Source of the DNA: Nitrospirota bacterium
Lineage (GTDB): Bacteria > JACPQY01
Assembly (NCBI GenBank): GCA_016180645.1
Contig: JACPAV010000035.1
Coordinates: 1 to 34,894, forward strand
DNA length: 34,894 bases
Reading direction: 5' to 3'
Shown here: piece after piece, positions 8,639 through 34,894 of the stretch
How the letters are laid out: every line of letters starts with the position of its first letter
Numbering within the stretch: the first letter of the stretch is position 1
Program-made: the position numbers and the translations under genes
Notes under the pieces: generated by a model
What the model was told of the DNA's origin: nothing
The model's database searches: none
The model's input: only the letters and a program-made list of their open reading frames with translations

Positions 8639-11600
8639 ATGGTCAGCCGACCACGAGCCGGGGGAGTTCTTGCCAGCCGTGCGCTCATCGCCGCATTTTG
8701 GGTTCCGGCCCTTCTCATCGTCTTCACGAATCCCTCATGGTCGCAGACCGAAGAATACCAACGGCGTGTTCCCGGCCCCATACAACGCCCGGCTGAAGAT
8801 ACGAAAGCGCTCATCCAGCTCATGAATCCCTACGATCCGTTGAAGCGGATCCAGGCTGCCGAGAGACTCGGCCGGACCGGGAACCCCATCTACGCCGAAC
8901 CGCTGGGATGGGCGATGGTCGATCGAAATCTGGCGGTGCGAAAGTCGGCCGCCCGCGCGCTCGGCCATTTGCCGGAAGGAGACGCCCTCCCGGTGCTGGT
9001 CCGCGCCCTCTCGAAGGAGAAGGATGACGGCGTGCTGGAATCGGTGTTGGACGCAATGGCCGGGTTCCAGGGTTCCATGGTCGATTGGCAGCTCAAGCAT
9101 TTCATCTCAAGCGCACTGGCCTCGGAACGGGTGCGCCTCAAGGCATTGGACATTTTCGGCACGCGCGCGCCACCCGATGGTCGGGTTTTTCTTGACCTGA
9201 ATCGCGGCTCGTTCCCGCCTGCGATGAGGACCAAGGCGGAGGAAATCATGGCCGAGAGCTACGGGGTCAAACCTCAGGTGCAGGTCTTTCCTCCGGTCTT
9301 CGTCGGTCCCCAAAAGCCCGAACCGGCCCCCGTGCCGGCGCCGACGCCGGTCCCCGCGGTCGAGGAGCCTCCCCCCGATCCCCGCGCGCGCGGTCGATGG
9401 CTTCTGGTAACCAGTTCCGGACTCTATGGTGCATCGTTCCTGGATCTCATGCGACGGGCGTCCGATTCCCAGGTTTCACCGAGCTGGACGATGCCCATCG
9501 GCCTGACCGTGGGCGGCGGCACGGCCTACCTCATGACCCATTTCTCGCACGGTGTGAGCCCCGGCCCCGCCCTTTGGTGGACCTCCTCGGGCATCTGGGG
9601 CGTGGCGGCGTCTCACTGGACCGCCAACGGGATGGGTGAGGGTCACGGTTCCACGAGGCGGCTTTACAACCTGGCGGGCGAGGGGATCGGCCTGGGCGCC
9701 GGGGGGATCTCGGCCTTCGCTCTGGATTGGACGATCAGTGACACCACGTACGTCAACACAGGAGGTGTGGGTGGTGCCCTTTGGGGTTGGGGGCTCGAGC
9801 TGATGAGCGGGCCGGAACGCGATCCGGCCAAGGCGGGCTGGCTCACCCTGGCGGGGGCCACGGGCGGATTGACCCTCGCGGCGCTCTCGACAGAACGGGT
9901 GACCCTCCGGAATTCCAACCTTTCGATGCTGTTCCTGGCCTCCGGCTACGGCGCGTGGGCGGGCGCATGGGCGCCGGGGCTGGGACGACGGTCCATTCCC
10001 GGCCACAAGGCGTGGGGGGGGAGCTTGACGGGACTGACCACTGGATACGCCGCCGGCGTGTTTCTCTCGCAGCGAGTGACCGAGCCGCCCGAATTCGCGT
10101 GGCGCGTGGTGGGCGCGGGCGCGATGGGGAATCTTCTTGGCGCGGGCCTCGGTTTCATGTTCTTCGACACGTTCGACCAACCTTCGATCGCACTAATGGA
10201 GGGGTTGGGTATCGGCGGTCTCGCGACGGGCGTGTACTACGATCACCTTTTCCCAGCCTCGCGGGAGCAGCCGGGCTTCAAGTCATTCGTCTTTCTTTCA
10301 GGGGCCTACTACGGTGCTCTGGTTCCGCGCGCGCTCAACCGGACTCCGCATGGGCGGCGGAGGACGGGACGGATCATGGCAGGATTTCCGATGCTGACCG
10401 CGGCCACGTTGGCATTTGGCAATGGCCTTGAAATCCCTCCGCGCGGAACCGCGGGGCTCTACTGGGGCGAGATTCTAGGGAGTGTGTCGGGCGCGGGCTG
10501 GGCCCTGACCTCCCGCTCCGACCAAGCTCTGCTTTCGGCCCTCGCGATGGGCGGGGGCGTTCTCGGCGCGGCTGGGGGATACGGTATGAGCCAGAGTCTG
10601 TCGTGGGCCCCGATGACGGAGCGTGAACATTCATTCGTCATGCTCCTGACGGCCTCGGGCGCATGGTACGGGGCGTGGGCGCCGGTGATGCTGCCGGGCC
10701 GTGTGGATCTGGACCGTGTGGGTGGCGGCGCGCTCGCGCTCTCCCCTCTGGCTCTCGGTACATCGCTTGTGCTGGCCGATCAGATCGAGCTGCGGCCTCG
10801 CATCAATCACGGGCTTTTCTTCGGGGAGGCCGTCGGATTTCTGGCGGGAGCCGGGGCCGGGTGGTCGCTGCTGGCCGATAGGCGGACGACCACGGCCATG
10901 ATGCTCGCCGGAGGCGCAGGCGGGATGTTCGGCGGCTACGTGTTCGTGCGGAACATGGCGGCGGCGTCTCCGGTCCGCGCGTGGCGGGAAAGCATCCTCG
11001 TGGCTCACGGCACGCTGGCGGGCGCGTGGTACGGCGGGTGGACGGCGAGGTCGTTCCGATTGTCCGGCCGCCGCATTTCGGCCCGACGGGTTTCGGGCGG
11101 CGCACTCCTGGGGGGAACCGTCGGCCTCACGGGTACGATGTGGATCACCAATCACTACGACGTGCAGAATCGAGTCCTGCCGGGGCTGTTCTATGGTCAG
11201 GTGATGGGCGGTACGTTCGGGCAAGGCGTCGGGTTCCTCATGACGCGATCGACGGGGCGCAATCCATCGGACGAAACGCTGGGGAAGATCGACCGCGAAG
11301 TGGATCGTTCCTACTACATCATGGCGGCTTCGAGCGCCGCGGGGATGACCGGAGGGTATTTCTTCGCGACCCGGATGGCCGATCCCTCCTCTTGGAGAGG
11401 GAAGGAGACGTCGTGGTTCTTTCTCCACTCGTCGTTTGCGGCATGGTACGGGGCATGGCTTCCCACCATGGGCCGTTCGCGCGTGGCGGACGTGGAGCAG
11501 CGCCACGTCTTCGGGGGTGTGATGACGGCCGTGCCGACCGCGATGGCCGCCTCGATCTGGAGTGCAAACCATATGGATCTGTCGCCGAGGACCGTGCCGT

Positions 11601-13927
11601 CGCTCCTGCTGGGAGGAATCTTGGGCACTTCAACCGGCATCGGAGTCGCGGAAACCACGCTGGGTTCGGGCCGGTTCAGACGAGCGTCCATGCTGACGGG
11701 TGGCGCGGCAGGTGAACTCTTCGGCTACGCCTACGGCCGCGCGTTGAGAGCGGGATCGCCGAACACGACGCCAATGGCGGCGGCCGTCACGAGTCTGGGC
11801 ACGTTCTCCGGCCTTTGGTACGGCGCGTGGCTGCCGACGCTCGTTGCGCGGGATCTTTCGGATGTGTCCGATCGGCGCATCGCGGGCGGGGTGATGGTGG
11901 GCGGGCCGGCAGCCTTCGCGGTTTCGTTGTGGACAGCCAATCAAGTCGGCATCAGCCCGCGGTCGGCCACGGGATTTTTTCTCGGCGAGGGGTTGGGCAC
12001 GTCGTTTGGCGCGGGCCTCGGGTTGCTGATCCATTCGGACGATCGCTGGAGAAGCACATTCATGCTCTCTTCGGGGGCACTGGGCGCATGGAGCGGCTTG
12101 GAAATGGCGCGCCGGATGATCGGGCCGTCCGCTTTCCGGGATGACGAGGGGGCGGTGGCCGTGGCGCTCTCGACGGCGTCGTTCACGTGGTATGGAACGT
12201 GGCTGCCGACGCTTGCCGTGCGCGATTTGAAGAAGGGTTCGCCTTCGGGGGTCATCGGCGGGGCCATGATGGCGGCGCCGGTCGGATTCGCGGCGTCCAC
12301 ATGGATCGTGAATCACCACGTCGTTCGGGAGCGGGACCTGAAAGGAATCTTCGGCGGCGAGGTGATGGGATTCTCCGTCGGCGCCGGGATCGGGATGGCC
12401 GGTTTGAGCTCGCGTAGATGGACCACCTCGCTCATGCTCGGGACCGGTGCGGTGGGCGCCCTCGCGGGCTACCGGGTCGCTCAACGTCTGCCCGGTCAGG
12501 CGCTGGAGGACTATCCGCCGCTTCTGGCATTCACCGCTCTCACCGGGCTGTGGTACGGAGGGTGGTCGCCCACGTTCACGGCGCGGAGGTGGTCCGACAT
12601 CGAGTCCAGGCGCGTGACCGGCGGCCTCATGATCGGCGGTCCGTTGGGCCTGGCGACGGGTCTCATTCTCCGCCATCGCCAAGTGGAGCCGTTGGCCTAC
12701 ACGGGATTCTTCATGGGGGAAAGTCTCGGTTCCATGGGGGGGGCGGGGGCCGCGATGACGCTGGATTCGTCCCACAGGAAGACCACGGCCGCGATGCTCG
12801 CCTCGGGCGTCGCCCTGGGGGCCGCGGGGTCGAGGGTGCTGCCGCGGATGAAACTCTCCGATCCGCAGCAGAAGGCGTTGGGGATGGGCGCGTTCTTCGG
12901 CGTGAGCTACGGAGCGCTCCTGCCGTATGTGGTGGAAGGCCGCAGGCGCGAAGTTGAAGGCAAACAGATTGCCGGCGGCGTGATGTTCGGTCTGCCGGCG
13001 GGTCTGGTGACCACGACGGCCGCTTTCGCTTTCTGGGACCCCGCAGGGGGTTCGGTGGGCCTCACCTGGTTGTCCGGCATCATCGGCTCGGCTGCCGGGC
13101 TGGGCCTCGGTCTGACGATCGAAGATTGGAACTCGCGGGCCGTCATCGGTTCGATGTATTCCACCGGCCTCAGCGGACTGGCGTTGGGCGCGCGCGCGCC
13201 GCAAATCAAGTACACCTCGGGAGCGCTTCTCTTCTCCACCTTCGGCACCGTCTACGGGTTCAGCCAGGGGTTGGCGCTGAGTATTTTCGGCGATTTTTCC
13301 GAGCGGCAGGCGATCGGGGCGATGATGTTGGGTTCGTCTCTCGGCCTCGGCACGTCGTTGATCATCACCTACGATCTTCAAGTGGGGACGGGCGGGGCGG
13401 CCGTGGCGTACACGGGCGGGATCTGGGGCGGATTCGTTGGGGCGATGCTCGCGCAGGTGGCGGCGGGCGGCAAAGAGGAGACGACGACGGCCGCCGTCAT
13501 CGTGAGCAATGCAGGGCAACTGGCGACCACGTTTTCCCTCTTGTATCTCCGTATTCCGCCGAGACGCATGGGTTGGATCAACTTGTTTGGTCTGACCGGC
13601 TTGGGGATCGGGAGCGCCATCGGACTTCCGCTCAGCGAGGGAGGCGATGTGTTCTTCATCACCGCGCCGGCGGGGAGTTTGATCGGGCTGACGACGGGGG
13701 CGATCGTCACATCCTACTGGGACTGGGAAGAGGAGCGGAAAGATTCGGGGCAGACGCCTTCAATCGGTGGCGCGTCGCCGCTCCGCGAGACATCGCCCGG
13801 ACACGGTTGGCGTTCGCTCGTTCCGCGCGTGGATGCCGTGGCGCCGCAATTCGGACTCCTTCCCGATCCGAGCGGCCGGGACCCCGAAGGGCGATATACG
13901 GTTGGCGTCATGATCTGGTATCACTAG
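8639..13927 (+). CDS. Giant HEAT plus Gly-rich repeat membrane/secreted protein, unknown family
   Basis: 1762 residues. A signal peptide or anchor (about 12-36, ending PSWSQ) is followed by HEAT-like repeats (about 50-200; e.g. DPLKRIQAAERLGRTG, AVRKSAARALGHLP), a Pro-rich linker (about 224-247) and about eleven repeats filling residues 255-1710. Each repeat is marked by W-Y-G-A-W-like residues near 262, 440, 557, 676, 797, 936, 1060, 1184, 1305, 1423 and 1538, so the period is mostly 115-124 residues. A unit holds about four 20-residue Gly-rich hydrophobic stretches, with recurring GG(V/A)M, SPR..TGFFLGE.LG..GAG and ML.SGA.G motifs, separated by charged loops with RDL or RR. This could be dozens of glycine-zipper helices or an unusual barrel; the chain ends VGVMIWYH. 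Start: a TAGGAT hexamer 8 nt before ATG suggests a leaderless transcript; the best Shine-Dalgarno (GGAGG, 8591-8595) instead serves GTG 8602 in another frame. I recognise no named family. Confidence 0.85.
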   Translation: MVSRPRAGGVLASRALIAAFWVPALLIVFTNPSWSQTEEYQRRVPGPIQRPAEDTKALIQLMNPYDPLKRIQAAERLGRTGNPIYAEPLGWAMVDRNLAVRKSAARALGHLPEGDALPVLVRALSKEKDDGVLESVLDAMAGFQGSMVDWQLKHFISSALASERVRLKALDIFGTRAPPDGRVFLDLNRGSFPPAMRTKAEEIMAESYGVKPQVQVFPPVFVGPQKPEPAPVPAPTPVPAVEEPPPDPRARGRWLLVTSSGLYGASFLDLMRRASDSQVSPSWTMPIGLTVGGGTAYLMTHFSHGVSPGPALWWTSSGIWGVAASHWTANGMGEGHGSTRRLYNLAGEGIGLGAGGISAFALDWTISDTTYVNTGGVGGALWGWGLELMSGPERDPAKAGWLTLAGATGGLTLAALSTERVTLRNSNLSMLFLASGYGAWAGAWAPGLGRRSIPGHKAWGGSLTGLTTGYAAGVFLSQRVTEPPEFAWRVVGAGAMGNLLGAGLGFMFFDTFDQPSIALMEGLGIGGLATGVYYDHLFPASREQPGFKSFVFLSGAYYGALVPRALNRTPHGRRRTGRIMAGFPMLTAATLAFGNGLEIPPRGTAGLYWGEILGSVSGAGWALTSRSDQALLSALAMGGGVLGAAGGYGMSQSLSWAPMTEREHSFVMLLTASGAWYGAWAPVMLPGRVDLDRVGGGALALSPLALGTSLVLADQIELRPRINHGLFFGEAVGFLAGAGAGWSLLADRRTTTAMMLAGGAGGMFGGYVFVRNMAAASPVRAWRESILVAHGTLAGAWYGGWTARSFRLSGRRISARRVSGGALLGGTVGLTGTMWITNHYDVQNRVLPGLFYGQVMGGTFGQGVGFLMTRSTGRNPSDETLGKIDREVDRSYYIMAASSAAGMTGGYFFATRMADPSSWRGKETSWFFLHSSFAAWYGAWLPTMGRSRVADVEQRHVFGGVMTAVPTAMAASIWSANHMDLSPRTVPSLLLGGILGTSTGIGVAETTLGSGRFRRASMLTGGAAGELFGYAYGRALRAGSPNTTPMAAAVTSLGTFSGLWYGAWLPTLVARDLSDVSDRRIAGGVMVGGPAAFAVSLWTANQVGISPRSATGFFLGEGLGTSFGAGLGLLIHSDDRWRSTFMLSSGALGAWSGLEMARRMIGPSAFRDDEGAVAVALSTASFTWYGTWLPTLAVRDLKKGSPSGVIGGAMMAAPVGFAASTWIVNHHVVRERDLKGIFGGEVMGFSVGAGIGMAGLSSRRWTTSLMLGTGAVGALAGYRVAQRLPGQALEDYPPLLAFTALTGLWYGGWSPTFTARRWSDIESRRVTGGLMIGGPLGLATGLILRHRQVEPLAYTGFFMGESLGSMGGAGAAMTLDSSHRKTTAAMLASGVALGAAGSRVLPRMKLSDPQQKALGMGAFFGVSYGALLPYVVEGRRREVEGKQIAGGVMFGLPAGLVTTTAAFAFWDPAGGSVGLTWLSGIIGSAAGLGLGLTIEDWNSRAVIGSMYSTGLSGLALGARAPQIKYTSGALLFSTFGTVYGFSQGLALSIFGDFSERQAIGAMMLGSSLGLGTSLIITYDLQVGTGGAAVAYTGGIWGGFVGAMLAQVAAGGKEETTTAAVIVSNAGQLATTFSLLYLRIPPRRMGWINLFGLTGLGIGSAIGLPLSEGGDVFFITAPAGSLIGLTTGAIVTSYWDWEEERKDSGQTPSIGGASPLRETSPGHGWRSLVPRVDAVAPQFGLLPDPSGRDPEGRYTVGVMIWYH

Positions 13928-13934
13928 ATCGCAT

Positions 13935-14507
13935 ATGGAATTCCGTATCCAACTTCCTGCGATGCTGGCCGGACTCCTGACGCTGATCGCCTCCGCCCTC
14001 CCGGCCCAAGCCGAAGGACCCCGAATCACCATCGAGTTCCGGGACAATCGCGGGGATTTTGCTTACGACGTGTACAAGGACGGAGAGTGGCAGGAGATGG
14101 ACTACTACGGGCGGCAGCTTGAGAGGCTCGTCAAAGAGGACGAACAAGCGAGGAGGTTCGCGAGGGACCTGGCGGACGATCGGGAGGAGGGGAGGCAGGG
14201 CAGGATCTTTGGGCATGTACTCCTGTGGGGCTCGGTGCTGGGGACGATTGTGGCGGCGAGCTCCGAATCGACGGGCGGCACATTGCTGGGCGTGGCTGGG
14301 ATGGTCGGCGGGATCGTAGTTGCATCCAACGGAAAATCGAAAGGCCGGAAGGCCTACCGGTACCTTTTCCGGGCCGTGAACACGTACAATGAATCCATGG
14401 CCGTTCGGGGTGCTGTGCCTTCGGGTCCGGCCGTTGGCCAGCCCGGTACTCCGGATTGCTCTTGCGGCGAAGGAACTTTTCCACCCGGCGGCGCAGGGAA
14501 TCCATAG
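13935..14507 (+). CDS. Small secreted protein with glycine-rich hydrophobic segment
   Basis: 190 residues, beginning 7 nt after the stop of the giant gene, so probably co-transcribed. A clear signal peptide (cleavage likely after LPAQA, residue about 26) leads to a charged region (ITIEFRDNRGDFAYDVYKDGEW, then an acidic/basic helix KEDEQARRFARDLADD). A hydrophobic Gly/Ala/Val stretch (about 95-130; GVAGMVGGIVVAS) has the spacing of a glycine zipper, like the repeats of its neighbour. The C-terminus is Pro/Gly-rich with two close Cys (CSCGEG). No family recognised; context suggests an accessory of the giant protein. Confidence 0.7.
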   Translation: MEFRIQLPAMLAGLLTLIASALPAQAEGPRITIEFRDNRGDFAYDVYKDGEWQEMDYYGRQLERLVKEDEQARRFARDLADDREEGRQGRIFGHVLLWGSVLGTIVAASSESTGGTLLGVAGMVGGIVVASNGKSKGRKAYRYLFRAVNTYNESMAVRGAVPSGPAVGQPGTPDCSCGEGTFPPGGAGNP

Positions 14508-14517
14508 CGATTCAATT

Positions 14518-14550
14518 CGCCGTCCCCGAAGCGAAGCGGAGAGGGGCGGG
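14518..14550. repeat. Short palindromic element, family D (intergenic copy)
   Basis: CGCCGTCCCC, a central GAAGCGAAGCGGAG and a GGGGCGG arm form a hairpin of about 33 nt. The same core occurs inside the coding regions of mlaF (17466-17494) and twice inside the MmgE/PrpD gene (32008-32039 and 33165-33197). This copy lies just past the stop codon at 14507 in a convergent intergenic region, where it could also act as a terminator. Confidence 0.7.
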
Positions 14551-17176: not shown

Positions 17177-17400
17177 ACCCTCACCCCCACCCTAACCCTC
17201 CCCCGTCGCCCCCTCCGCGTTGCTCCGGGGACGGCGAGATGAAAGGCCATTCGGAGATAGCGCCGAGGGGGAGGGGGTAGGCGCAGGCTTTATGCCTGCG
17301 TCTGAAGACGCACCCATAAAGGGTGCGGCTACCATCCTTTCCCCCCTTGTCCGCCGCGGCGGACTTGCGGGGGTAGGGGAGTATGGGGGGTGCCGAACGG
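17177..17400. repeat. Composite repeat island between mlaF and mlaD, with family B copy 2
   Basis: The gap begins with C-rich CCTCACCCCCACCCTAACC-type sequence (17179-17215) and ends with a G-rich counterpart (17367-17393), giving loosely inverted ends, with the palindrome CCGCCGCGGCGG near 17351. In its middle, 17277-17332 is a family B double hairpin: GTAG, GCAGGC-TTTAT-GCCTGC, GACGCACCC-ATAAA-GGGTGCG, CTAC. It interrupts the mla operon, so it may attenuate mlaD/mlaE expression relative to mlaF. Confidence 0.7.
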
Positions 17401-17406
17401 ATACAT

Positions 17407-18288
17407 TCACAGCACCTTGATCGGGCCGTCGGAGCGGCCTTCGAAGAATTGGGAAAGGATGTCGTTCGCCCTCTCCGCTTCGCTAGGAGGGCGACGAGTG
17501 GATCCCTCATCCTGAAACCGCGTCGACGCCTTGCGAATCTCGTCCTTCGGCCCGTAGGCCACCAGTTTCGACTGGTAGAGCATTCCGATCGTGTGGGCGA
17601 TCTTGAACGTGCTCTTGATGTCGTGGCTGATCACGATGTAGGTGATGCCGAGCCGCGCCTGAGTGTCCAGGATCAGGCGGTCGATGGCGTCGCTGGTCAC
17701 GGGATCGAGGCCGGAGGTCGGCTCGTCGAACACCACCACCTCCGGATCCATCACGATCGCGCGGGCGAGGGCCACGCGCTTGCGCATGCCGCCGGAGAGT
17801 TCCGATGGATTGTAGTGCTCCGTTCCGGGCATTCCGACCAGGCGAAGTTTCTCAGCAACAATGTCACGGATTTCAGTGTCCTTGAGCTGGGTGTGTTTTA
17901 CGAGGGGGAAGGCGACGTTCTCGCCGACGCTCATCGAACCGAACAGCGCCCCGCCTTGAAACAACATGCCGAATTTCTTGCGCAGGCGGTTGAGGGCGCG
18001 ATCGTCGAGGGAGTTGACCTCGACGTCACCCACGAACACGCTTCCGCGGTCCGGCTTCATCAGTCCCACAATGTGCTTCACCAATACGCTTTTCCCCACG
18101 CCGCTCTGACCGATCACGACGGTGGTTTTTCCTCCCGGGATGTCGAGCGTAACGTCGCTGAGCACGGTTTTGCCCTTGAGTATCTTGGTCACGTTTCGAA
18201 TGCGGATGGCGTGGGGATCGTGGCGGAGTGACAGTCGGTCAATCTTCTCCAGCAGGTCGCGGTGATTCGAATTCCGGAACAATCGCAC
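17407..18288 (-). CDS. mlaF: ABC transporter ATPase of Mla phospholipid transport
   Basis: 293 residues from GTG 18288. Walker A GQSGVGKS, Q-loop LFQGGALFGSMSVGENVAFPL, signature LSGGMRKRVALARA, Walker B VVVFDEPTSGLD and switch His in VISHDI are all intact. The QGGALF and C-terminal EGRSDGPI tail are Mla/Mkl-type hallmarks. The C-terminal region is about 18-19 residues longer than E. coli MlaF between KAS and QFFEG; the extra segment contains RRPPSEAER encoded by a family D palindrome (17466-17494). The N-terminus carries about 25 extra residues before the NBD. It powers lipid movement through MlaE/MlaD at the inner membrane; the direction is not deducible from sequence. Confidence 0.92.
   Translation of the reverse strand: MRLFRNSNHRDLLEKIDRLSLRHDPHAIRIRNVTKILKGKTVLSDVTLDIPGGKTTVVIGQSGVGKSVLVKHIVGLMKPDRGSVFVGDVEVNSLDDRALNRLRKKFGMLFQGGALFGSMSVGENVAFPLVKHTQLKDTEIRDIVAEKLRLVGMPGTEHYNPSELSGGMRKRVALARAIVMDPEVVVFDEPTSGLDPVTSDAIDRLILDTQARLGITYIVISHDIKSTFKIAHTIGMLYQSKLVAYGPKDEIRKASTRFQDEGSTRRPPSEAERANDILSQFFEGRSDGPIKVL
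17466..17494 (-). repeat. Family D palindrome inside mlaF coding region
   Basis: Inverted arms TCGCCCTC (17466-17473) and GAGGGCGA (17487-17494) flank a GCGAAGCGGAG core on the coding strand. It is read in frame as RRPPSEAER, matching the RRPRSEAEG encoded by the copy in the MmgE/PrpD gene. Confidence 0.7.
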
Positions 18289-26200: not shown

Positions 26201-26308
26201 AAGAGCCTCTGACAGAATGCCGATTCGTAGGGGAGCATCTTCAGATGCTCCCTCTTGTCGGGAGGGTCTGAAGACCCTCCGCTACGCATTCTGTTAGACG
26301 CACTAAAT
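26201..26308. repeat. REP/MITE-like element, family A copy 2
   Basis: Inverted ends (AGAGCCTCTGACAGAATGC at 26202-26220, and ATTCTGTTAG with flanking at 26288-26308) enclose GTAG, hairpin GGGAGCATCT-TC-AGATGCTCCC, linker TCTTGTC, hairpin GGAGGGTCT-GA-AGACCCTCC, CTAC. It is nearly identical to the copy at 34799 and is in reverse orientation to the copy at 432. It abuts the 3' end of the hicB remnant. Confidence 0.8.
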
Positions 26309-31778: not shown

Positions 31779-33506
31779 ATGAAGATGGGCAACGGGGCAC
31801 TAATCGACGAAATGGCCGAATGGGTGGCCGGAGTTCGGTATGCCGACATTCCGCCGCGCGTGTGCGAGCGGATCAAAGTGCAATCGATCGGCATGTTGGG
31901 GGCGGCGTTTGGAGGTCTGAAATCCGAAGGCGGCCGCGCGGCGCTCAGCGCGGTGAGAAAGCGGACCGCGGAGGGGGCGGCGCAAGCTCCCGATGGAGAT
32001 TCCGATCGCCGTCCCCGGAGCCGAGCGGAGGGGGCGGCGACGATCTTTCCGACGGGGGAGAAGGGTCCACCGCACGAAGCCTTGTTCGCCAATACTGCGT
32101 TATCGATGACGTTCGACTACGATGACTACCTGTATATGGGTCACACGGGGCATTCGGCCATCTTCTCGCCGTGGGCCGTGTGCGAAGGTCTGGGCCGGAG
32201 CGGCGAAGATTTTCTCCTCGCGGCGGCGGTGGCAAACGAGGTCGAAGGGCGAATTGGAGCAACGGTCCTACTCGGGCCTCACAATGGGCAGCTTTGGTCG
32301 TTCATCCACGCCGTCGGCACCGCCTGCGCCGCGGCGAAGCTGATGGGTTTGAACGCGGCGCAGATTCGGAATGCCATCGGGATCAGCCTCTATCTGCCTC
32401 CCTTCACGATGATGCCGGGCTTCATGGGACCGTCGAGCAAGGTCACCACGGCCGCTTTCCCATCGGTGAACGGCCTGCGGGCGGCGGAACTGGCTGCCGA
32501 AGGGTTGACCGGAGCGGGACGGCTGCTGGAAGATCGGCAGGGTTTCCTGCGGCACTTCTCGTTTATTCCCCTGCCGCGGATGCTCAGCGGGTGGGGTAAG
32601 ACGTGGGTGACCGATTCTCTGAGCTTCAAGGCGTATCCGGGATGCGCCTACGTGAGCTCCATCGCGGAAGCCCTTCGGGCCTCACTCCGGGAGCTCGGGA
32701 TGGAAAGCGGCCTCAAGGATCCGGCCGAGATGGATTCGCTGCGGATTCGCGTCACATTGCTGACGCTCGGGATGGACGGGCTTTCCGCGCCGTACCTGGA
32801 AACGCCGCCGTCTTCGATCCACGTCAACTTCTCGGCCGCCTTGAGTGCCGCCGTCACGCTCCTGAACGGCGATCTGCGGCCGGACCATCTTTCGGAAAAG
32901 AAATTGAAGTCCGATTGGCCGGTCCTGTCGTCCTTTGTCGAGAAGACGCGTGTGGAGCATGATTGGGAAATGACGGTGGAACTGGTCCGTGGGATCGCGC
33001 AGGGCGTCAACCTCGCGCCACTCTTTACGCGCATCCCTGTGAGGGAATGGATTTCCCTCCGTAAGAAGGCGCGGGAACAGCATCACGTTTCGCTCCGCGG
33101 CGTCCGTCCGAAACACATCTGGCGGATCATCAAGACGGCGCGAGGCCGGCATGAGGGCTCGTTCCGCCGCCCCCGAAGCGAAGCGGAGGGGACGGCGCGA
33201 GGCAACGGGGTTGGCGGCCGATTCGATCTGGCGAATGCGAAATTCGAGGACCTCCGGATGAACTTTGCGAGTGAGGTGGAAATCCGGCTCAAGGGCGGCC
33301 GAAGCGCGCGGGCGAGGGTGGACCTTCCCCCGGGATCGTCGGGACGTCCGTGGCAGGAGAGCGTGGACTTGATGGCCGCCAAGCTGGACCGTGAAGCGGC
33401 GGGTTGTCTCTCGGCGGAAAAAATCGCCGCGATCCGCGAAGCGGTCATGGGCATCGAGAAGTGCCGCGATCTCCGCGCTCTTTCGCCCCTCTTCAAGGGG
33501 AATTGA
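31779..33506 (+). CDS. MmgE/PrpD-family protein with two in-frame palindromic insertions
   Basis: 575 residues, longer than typical members (about 450-480). The all-helical N-terminal domain (MTFDYDDYLYMGHTGHSAIFSPWA, GRIGATVLLGPHNGQLWSFIHAVG) contains the DYDD-x-x-x-x-GHxGxx signature of 2-methylcitrate dehydratase/cis-aconitate decarboxylase relatives; a second domain follows (YPGCAYVSSIAEAL). Excess length comes partly from segments encoded by palindromes: AEGAAQAPDGDSDRRPRSR (about 64-82, before the active-site region) and TARGRHEGSFRRPRSEAEG (about 453-471). Both are followed by a second copy of their first residues (AEGAA; TARG). Reaction unknown; the family dehydrates or isomerises methylcitrate-like acids. 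It is tightly packed after plsC. Confidence 0.85.
   Translation: MKMGNGALIDEMAEWVAGVRYADIPPRVCERIKVQSIGMLGAAFGGLKSEGGRAALSAVRKRTAEGAAQAPDGDSDRRPRSRAEGAATIFPTGEKGPPHEALFANTALSMTFDYDDYLYMGHTGHSAIFSPWAVCEGLGRSGEDFLLAAAVANEVEGRIGATVLLGPHNGQLWSFIHAVGTACAAAKLMGLNAAQIRNAIGISLYLPPFTMMPGFMGPSSKVTTAAFPSVNGLRAAELAAEGLTGAGRLLEDRQGFLRHFSFIPLPRMLSGWGKTWVTDSLSFKAYPGCAYVSSIAEALRASLRELGMESGLKDPAEMDSLRIRVTLLTLGMDGLSAPYLETPPSSIHVNFSAALSAAVTLLNGDLRPDHLSEKKLKSDWPVLSSFVEKTRVEHDWEMTVELVRGIAQGVNLAPLFTRIPVREWISLRKKAREQHHVSLRGVRPKHIWRIIKTARGRHEGSFRRPRSEAEGTARGNGVGGRFDLANAKFEDLRMNFASEVEIRLKGGRSARARVDLPPGSSGRPWQESVDLMAAKLDREAAGCLSAEKIAAIREAVMGIEKCRDLRALSPLFKGN
31968..32039 (+). repeat. Family D palindromic insertion 1 in MmgE/PrpD gene
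   Basis: Palindrome CGCCGTCCCC...GGGGGCGGCG (32008-32039) is bracketed by direct repeats GCGGAGGGGGCGGCG at 31968-31982 and 32025-32039, exactly 57 nt apart (19 codons). It is read in frame as RRPRSRAEG. Confidence 0.75.
33134..33203 (+). repeat. Family D palindromic insertion 2 in MmgE/PrpD gene
   Basis: Palindrome 33165-33197 (arms CGCCGCCCCC and GGGGACGGCG, core GAAGCGAAGCGGA) is bracketed by direct repeats GACGGCGCGAGGC at 33134-33146 and 33191-33203, again exactly 57 nt (19 codons) apart. It is read in frame as RRPRSEAEG. Confidence 0.8.
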
Positions 33507-34798: not shown

Positions 34799-34894
34799 CT
34801 TAGAGCCTCTGAGAGAATGCCGGTTCGTAGGGGAGCATCTTCAGATGCTCCCTCTTGTCGGGAGGGTCTGAAGACCCTCCCCTACGCATAAGGA
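34799..34894. repeat. REP/MITE-like element, family A copy 3 (cut by window edge)
   Basis: Begins TTAGAGCCTCTGAGAGAATGC and contains GTAG, GGGAGCATCT/AGATGCTCCC, the TCTTGTC linker, GGAGGGTCT/AGACCCTCC and CCTAC, nearly identical to the copy at 26201 and in the same orientation. A partial TTAGAGCCT start also occurs about 47 nt earlier (34752). It follows the protease gene and may terminate the upstream operon. Confidence 0.8.

Follow-up and report, generated by a model that had tools for sequence, protein, structure and literature searches.

The palindromic elements of Rickettsia (RPE) and Wolbachia (WPE) are short stem-loop repeats that lie in frame within conserved protein genes, where the peptide they encode is apparently tolerated (PMC2229807, PMC3767692). 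RPEs measure ~100-150 bp and form one long stem-loop with terminal inverted repeats, and their orthologous copies are often common to several species (PMC2229807, PMC3767692). A second relevant group, the CGTC REPs, have no known dedicated transposase, are in some cases located inside genes, and consist of 8-9-bp stems starting with AT, 4-5-nt loops and CCA tails, arranged mainly as head-head dimers (PMC3733652). Finally, in the IS200/IS605 family and in TnpAREP systems, guide tetranucleotides positioned 5′ of a hairpin pick the cleavage site by complementarity, and an altered guide re-aims the element (PMC8266576, PMC5934647).

Within the window, i.e. the whole 34,894-nt stretch of DNA analysed here, we found five copies of one ~57-nt repeat, which a profile HMM of the full element matched with E-values ranging from 2e-17 to 1.4e-8. 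An earlier note on this DNA had described a palindrome at four positions; those copies are real, yet a fifth (17209-17265, minus strand) had been overlooked, and the palindrome, although present, is merely the 3′ half of an element with two back-to-back stem-loops. The palindrome core, GAAGCGAAGCGGAG, occurs exactly at 14528 and 33175 and with two mismatches at 17473 on the minus strand, while the core at the first site in the MmgE/PrpD gene (GGAGCCGAGCGGAG) is more diverged. By itself the core is weak evidence in the window, with 0.72 matches expected by chance at ≤2 mismatches. An Rfam search of the window gave no match. The copies, with their arms (A and A′, see below) and direct repeats in MmgE/PrpD, are as follows, G001 being a relative from the same family:

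14489-14546, plus strand: element copy over the 3′ end of the open reading frame at 13935-14507 and intergenic region (HMM)
17209-17265, minus strand: element copy between mlaF and mlaD (HMM)
17469-17525, minus strand: element copy in mlaF, 57 nt or 19 codons, empty in two G001 homologues
31968-31982, plus strand: 15-nt direct repeat GCGGAGGGGGCGGCG, copy 1, MmgE/PrpD site 1
31978-32034, plus strand: element copy, 57 nt, MmgE/PrpD site 1 (HMM)
32025-32039, plus strand: 15-nt direct repeat GCGGAGGGGGCGGCG, copy 2
33134-33146, plus strand: 13-nt direct repeat GACGGCGCGAGGC, copy 1, MmgE/PrpD site 2
33136-33192, plus strand: element copy, 57 nt, MmgE/PrpD site 2, encoding the TARGRHEGSFRRPRSEAEG region (HMM), empty in the G001 orthologue
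33136-33140, plus strand: left arm A (CGGCG) at site 2, from the consensus and covariation
33165-33169, plus strand: internal arm A′ (CGCCG), the guide-like pentamer at the 5′ foot of the 3′ hairpin, from A/A′ complementarity and right-flank tracking
33169-33193, plus strand: 3′ hairpin GCCCCC-loop-GGGGAC at site 2, which holds the core palindrome of the earlier note
33191-33203, plus strand: 13-nt direct repeat GACGGCGCGAGGC, copy 2, whose TAR codons are also found in the G001 orthologue

The three coding copies share one reading frame, and both pairs of MmgE/PrpD direct repeats (13 and 15 nt) are exact and spaced by 57 nt. Elsewhere in the window (8639-13927, plus strand), a 1762-aa open reading frame with an apparently HEAT-like start carries many degenerate Gly-rich repeats of the GAWYGAW type and, judged by eye, possibly encodes a repeat-built membrane protein.

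A covariance model recovered at least 149 copies from the whole 4.7-Mb genome, and a profile of the full unit yielded 128 matches in 1.58 Mb of it and none in the reversed sequence. G001, the one other genome of the phylum in the comparison, contains six copies, and 39 further relatives contain none. Plasmid, phage and IMG/VR searches with the consensus or a degenerate core returned no match, and an exact 24-mer of the element had no match in GTDB contigs, where its own genome may be left out. Contigs C20 and C25 of G000 are unusually dense in element copies, and nested copies are concentrated there too. At another position (G000:C11:52688-52746), a copy immediately precedes a likely gene start (MKEISLILKNVPGQLAEVADICAAEG...; by eye, the product resembles an ACT domain), and the CGATGAA found at this start recurs at the left end of the copy.

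The consensus of the element is CGACGCAAGGACCCCATGACGATTCCTCTCGTCGTCCCCGGAGCGAAGCGGAGGGGGC, with the order A (5 nt), 24-nt loop, A′ (5 nt, complementary to A) and 3′ hairpin. Its edges are sharp: the information content is ~0.2 bits immediately beyond the unit but 1.7 bits at its first position, and on the right side it declines over positions 57-62. A (positions 1-5) and A′ (positions 30-34) were perfect reverse complements in 72 of 77 copies, as compared to a mean of 27.5 and a maximum of 40 in 2000 shuffles; related copies may inflate such covariation counts, yet a switch of class requires a change on both sides. Three main A/A′ classes were found, namely CGACG/CGTCG, CGGCG/CGCCG and CGATG/CATCG; 33 of 82 copies belong to the class with A′ = CGTCG, and the copies in G001 include two of the three. 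The second hairpin spans positions 34-58, has the consensus GTCCCC-GGAGCGRAGCGGA-GGGGGC and covaries at 38-54 and 39-53. Taken one by one, the copies have single-strand folding energies that are ordinary for their composition, so the proposed structure rests on covariation; a first RNAalifold consensus, built from 27 copies, showed none, the A/A′ signal appearing in the larger aligned set.

Comparison with G001 revealed empty sites shorter by exactly 57 nt in MlaF (both homologues), MmgE/PrpD site 2, TGT, a Usp-domain protein and an unknown protein at C2:366010, and by 54 nt in SucA, the exact junction at these orthologous sites being ambiguous by up to 5 nt, with A present in both element and target. 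The excess of MlaF, noticed earlier against E. coli, is thus exactly 19 residues relative to both homologues, and the segments that repeat-free orthologues would have shared, were they ordinary parts of these proteins, are lacking in the G001 orthologues. The earlier suggestion that each MmgE/PrpD copy adds 19 codons holds for site 2, which has an empty orthologue. There, the best alignment score was obtained by removing 60 nt; as the repeat spacing and the unit are both 57 nt, one codon was lost or gained. Site 1 is not a clean test and has no clean empty orthologue, since the protein exceeds its G001 counterpart by only 11 residues and the latter carries extra residues of its own. Nested copies provide junctions of a different kind. 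The element at C7:82840 is split as ATTTCG^CGGCGC...GAAGGGGG^TCGCCC (carets marking the junctions), the near-identical paralogous copy at C7:86491 being unsplit, and this internal site, C(G/A)^TCGTCC, was used again by several further nested copies. A composite inner unit (~104 nt) recurs within two different outer copies. The nested junctions place the left A inside the block that was inserted. Whole 57-nt blocks have been inserted singly, nested in one another or as head-to-tail arrays.

Judged against gene calls predicted from codon usage (81% coding), 31 of 82 well-aligned copies lie wholly in genes, 40 are intergenic and 11 extend across a gene edge. This in-gene share is below expectation from the coding fraction but far above that of REPINs: the same genome harbors two GTAG-REPIN families, which together have a single copy out of 82 in genes. 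These GTAG-tagged REPIN-like families (GTAGGGGAGCATCTTCAGATGCTCCC... and GTAGCCGCACCCTTTATGGGTGCG...CCTAC) gave 65 and 17 matches in 1.58 Mb, and their copies in the window are:

14612 onward, plus strand: GTAG REPIN-like copy
17270-17332, minus strand: GTAG REPIN-like copy
26227-26291, plus strand: GTAG REPIN-like copy
34827-34885, plus strand: GTAG REPIN-like copy

Unit lengths of the 57-nt family were 57 (29 copies), 54 (1) and 62 nt (1) in genes, and 57 (35), 58 (3) and 56 nt (2) between them. Frame use, read with a gene caller that may itself favour some frames, was 12:4:1 in sense and 10:3:1 in antisense orientation; the preferred frames, TQGPHDSSSRRPRSGAEG in sense (12/17) and PPLRSGDDEMKNHGVLAS in antisense (10/14), are the most hydrophilic on each strand. 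Relative to the availability of stop-free frames in intergenic copies, this preference had p = 0.003 for sense and p = 0.05 for antisense, so the absence of frame preference that would have spoken against in-frame entry was not what we found. Together with the empty orthologues, it supports the RPE-like entry into genes that had been proposed. Host genes include DnaJ, a carbohydrate phosphorylase, SufBD, TGT and SucA. In-gene insertions can be tolerated as 19-residue hydrophilic segments, since the unit length of 57 nt is divisible by three and stops are mostly absent from two of the frames on either strand. The peptides themselves are probably without function. Because tgt and sucA are both single-copy genes, the lengthened TGT and SucA are presumably the forms that the host uses. 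AlphaFold models were too poor for placing the inserts (mean pLDDT 47 for MlaF and 39 for TGT, from alignments of 2-3 rows).

We next consider the sequence adjacent to the insertions. The five bases that follow the unit on its 3′ side vary with the A′ class, 34 of 82 copies matching at the two variable positions versus 16.5 expected. With tandem and nested copies removed, 29 of 75 matched versus 14.2 expected, and none of 10,000 shuffles scored as high. The left flank, as control, gave 1 of 75 and thus no signal; 10 of 11 shifted registers were likewise without signal, and a p of 0.03, as in the remaining one (shift 10), can arise among eleven tests. A class-matched motif is already present at empty G001 sites (GGCGACG in SucA, GGCGGCG in Usp), and is absent from the right side of the nested insertions at C(G/A)^TCGTCC. 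The position of A′, 5′ of the hairpin, fits a guide role, because the guides of IS200/IS605 and TnpAREP sit likewise. However, no matched motif is seen at the nested junctions and the cut can be placed only to within 5 nt, so we infer this role indirectly: the complementarity between guide and flanking target that marks IS200/IS605-type elements is seen here as a statistical match only.

Direct repeats were assessed across the family. Repeats of ≥7 nt at ~57-nt spacing accompany 23% of copies versus 14% of class-matched control pairs. Target-site duplication was rejected as a family-wide feature, there being no constant repeat length and the longest repeats being tandem arrays; the reading of the MmgE/PrpD repeats as duplicated flanks thus does not generalize, most copies being without long repeats. 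At MmgE/PrpD site 2, the TAR codons also occur in G001. The target thus probably carried the motif already when the element was inserted, one copy of the 13-nt repeat being ancestral target sequence. True arrays of 57-58 nt are located at C2:101670-101844, C13:7259-7375 and C3:236476-236590.

These repeats bear on two explanations that differ in how the copies arose. DDE-transposase MITEs with terminal inverted repeats would make the 13-15-nt MmgE/PrpD repeats target-site duplications, and four further copies (C2:355979, C8:83156, C26:61873, C20:90144) share with the two MmgE/PrpD copies direct repeats of 9-15 nt at 57-nt spacing. We deem this very improbable, given that the ends of the element are not inverted repeats (5′ CGRCG versus 3′ GGGGGC) and that most copies have no repeats of constant length, the nested C7 insertion having none and MlaF at most ~3 nt. 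Replication slippage or short-repeat recombination, with tandem duplication and contraction instead of transposition behind the 57-nt spacing, is less far-fetched but still improbable: it finds support in the true arrays on C2, C13 and C3 and in a stretch upstream of MmgE/PrpD site 1 that matches the element's own end, yet it accounts for local arrays only, whereas more than 100 loci, precise empty orthologous sites and several nested insertions at one type of site require an insertion mechanism. A further explanation, in which lineage-specific insertions of loops or low-complexity sequence in genes merely happen to resemble the repeat, has a negligible probability and is excluded for the aligned copies; the inserts do lie in length-variable stretches, as comparison with solved relatives of TGT and SucA indicated, but in-gene and intergenic copies form one sharp-ended HMM family, for which the reversed-sequence control gave zero.

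The alternative with most weight concerns the guide itself. The right-hand A motif might be a decaying third arm of the element, in which case A/A′ covariation would be purely structural and no guide would exist. Indeed, A and A′ alone make a stem with a 24-nt loop that covariation could simply maintain, and the nested junctions assign the left A to the inserted block. Against this, a net insertion of 57 nt leaves no space for an extra arm unless target bases were replaced, and the empty SucA and Usp sites of G001 already carry the class-matched motif; we therefore regard a third arm as unlikely, albeit a serious contender. The account we favour, with reasonable though incomplete confidence, is that of a non-autonomous ~57-nt mobile family of the RPE/REP kind, tolerated in frame, with A′ as guide and moved in trans by an HUH transposase. 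In this account A′ would base-pair with the target as guides do in IS200/IS605 and TnpAREP, a trans-acting HUH (Y1) transposase would move the element via single-stranded DNA, and out-of-frame or overly hydrophobic insertions would then be purged by selection. A more far-reaching version, which we put forward tentatively as possible, sees a 57-nt guide-programmed miniature element with at least three natural five-base guide classes in one genome, each class directing insertion to the site that matches it. A length equal to a whole number of codons, and hydrophilic frames without stops, would have allowed such an element to spread through protein genes, the single-copy tgt and sucA among them. 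Given that its pentamer tends to match the landing site, the repeat may be a jumping element of very small size whose aim changes naturally.

Mobilization is probably effected in trans by an HUH-type (Y1) transposase. The genome encodes seven Y1_Tnp (RAYT-like) genes (L031-L037), two of them adjacent on contig C34. The element occurs near only one of the seven (~0.6 kb downstream of L031), about what copy density predicts, while two others, L035 and L036, have GTAG REPINs on their flanks instead of the 57-nt element; no Y1_Tnp gene among the seven is clearly linked to it as a cognate transposase. Y1_Tnp gene number is no predictor of copy number, as G001 has eight such genes and only its six elements. 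In a scan of 1.58 Mb, about one third of the genome, for an autonomous relative (split ends around a gene-sized gap), no convincing pair was found.

The best-known examples of palindromic repeats inserted in frame come from Rickettsia and Wolbachia; here, another such family occurs in a sparsely sampled groundwater lineage. Its 4.7-Mb genome offers clean empty sites together with an internal control in the form of REPINs that avoid genes. The natural A/A′ classes within one genome provide a direct route to testing guide-directed targeting and to asking how frequently proteins gain length from selfish DNA.

Compared with DDE MITEs, the element is without terminal inverted repeats or a constant target-site duplication. 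With GTAG REPs and REPINs associated with RAYTs it shares a high-copy, non-autonomous palindromic nature and a guide-like tetranucleotide 5′ of the hairpin (PMC8266576), but we found neither a GTAG tag nor a cognate RAYT, and the true GTAG REPINs of this genome avoid genes. CGTC REPs are matched by a CGTC at the 5′ foot of the hairpin in one class of element only (A′ = CGTCG); the tag, in contrast, varies (CGTCG, CGCCG, CATCG) jointly with the left arm, the stem starts with GT or CT, the loop is ~13 nt and arrays run head-to-tail. The element may work like IS200/IS605 (IS608), with a short motif 5′ of the hairpin that is complementary to the flank, and in IS608 a change of guide changes the target (PMC5934647, PMC8266576); the element, however, contains no transposase gene. 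In the literature compared, such a guide-like feature has apparently not been described for in-gene palindromic elements. RPEs are resembled in that the 57-nt element, too, lies in frame in conserved genes, with empty orthologues in six genes. By their description, RPEs are nonetheless set apart from an element of 57 nt that is G+C-rich, has two back-to-back stem-loops and belongs to another phylum, and whereas RPE copies are often shared across species, the sites here are empty in the one relative compared. The element would be best filed as a new family of the RPE/REP kind, set apart from the known families by their descriptions.
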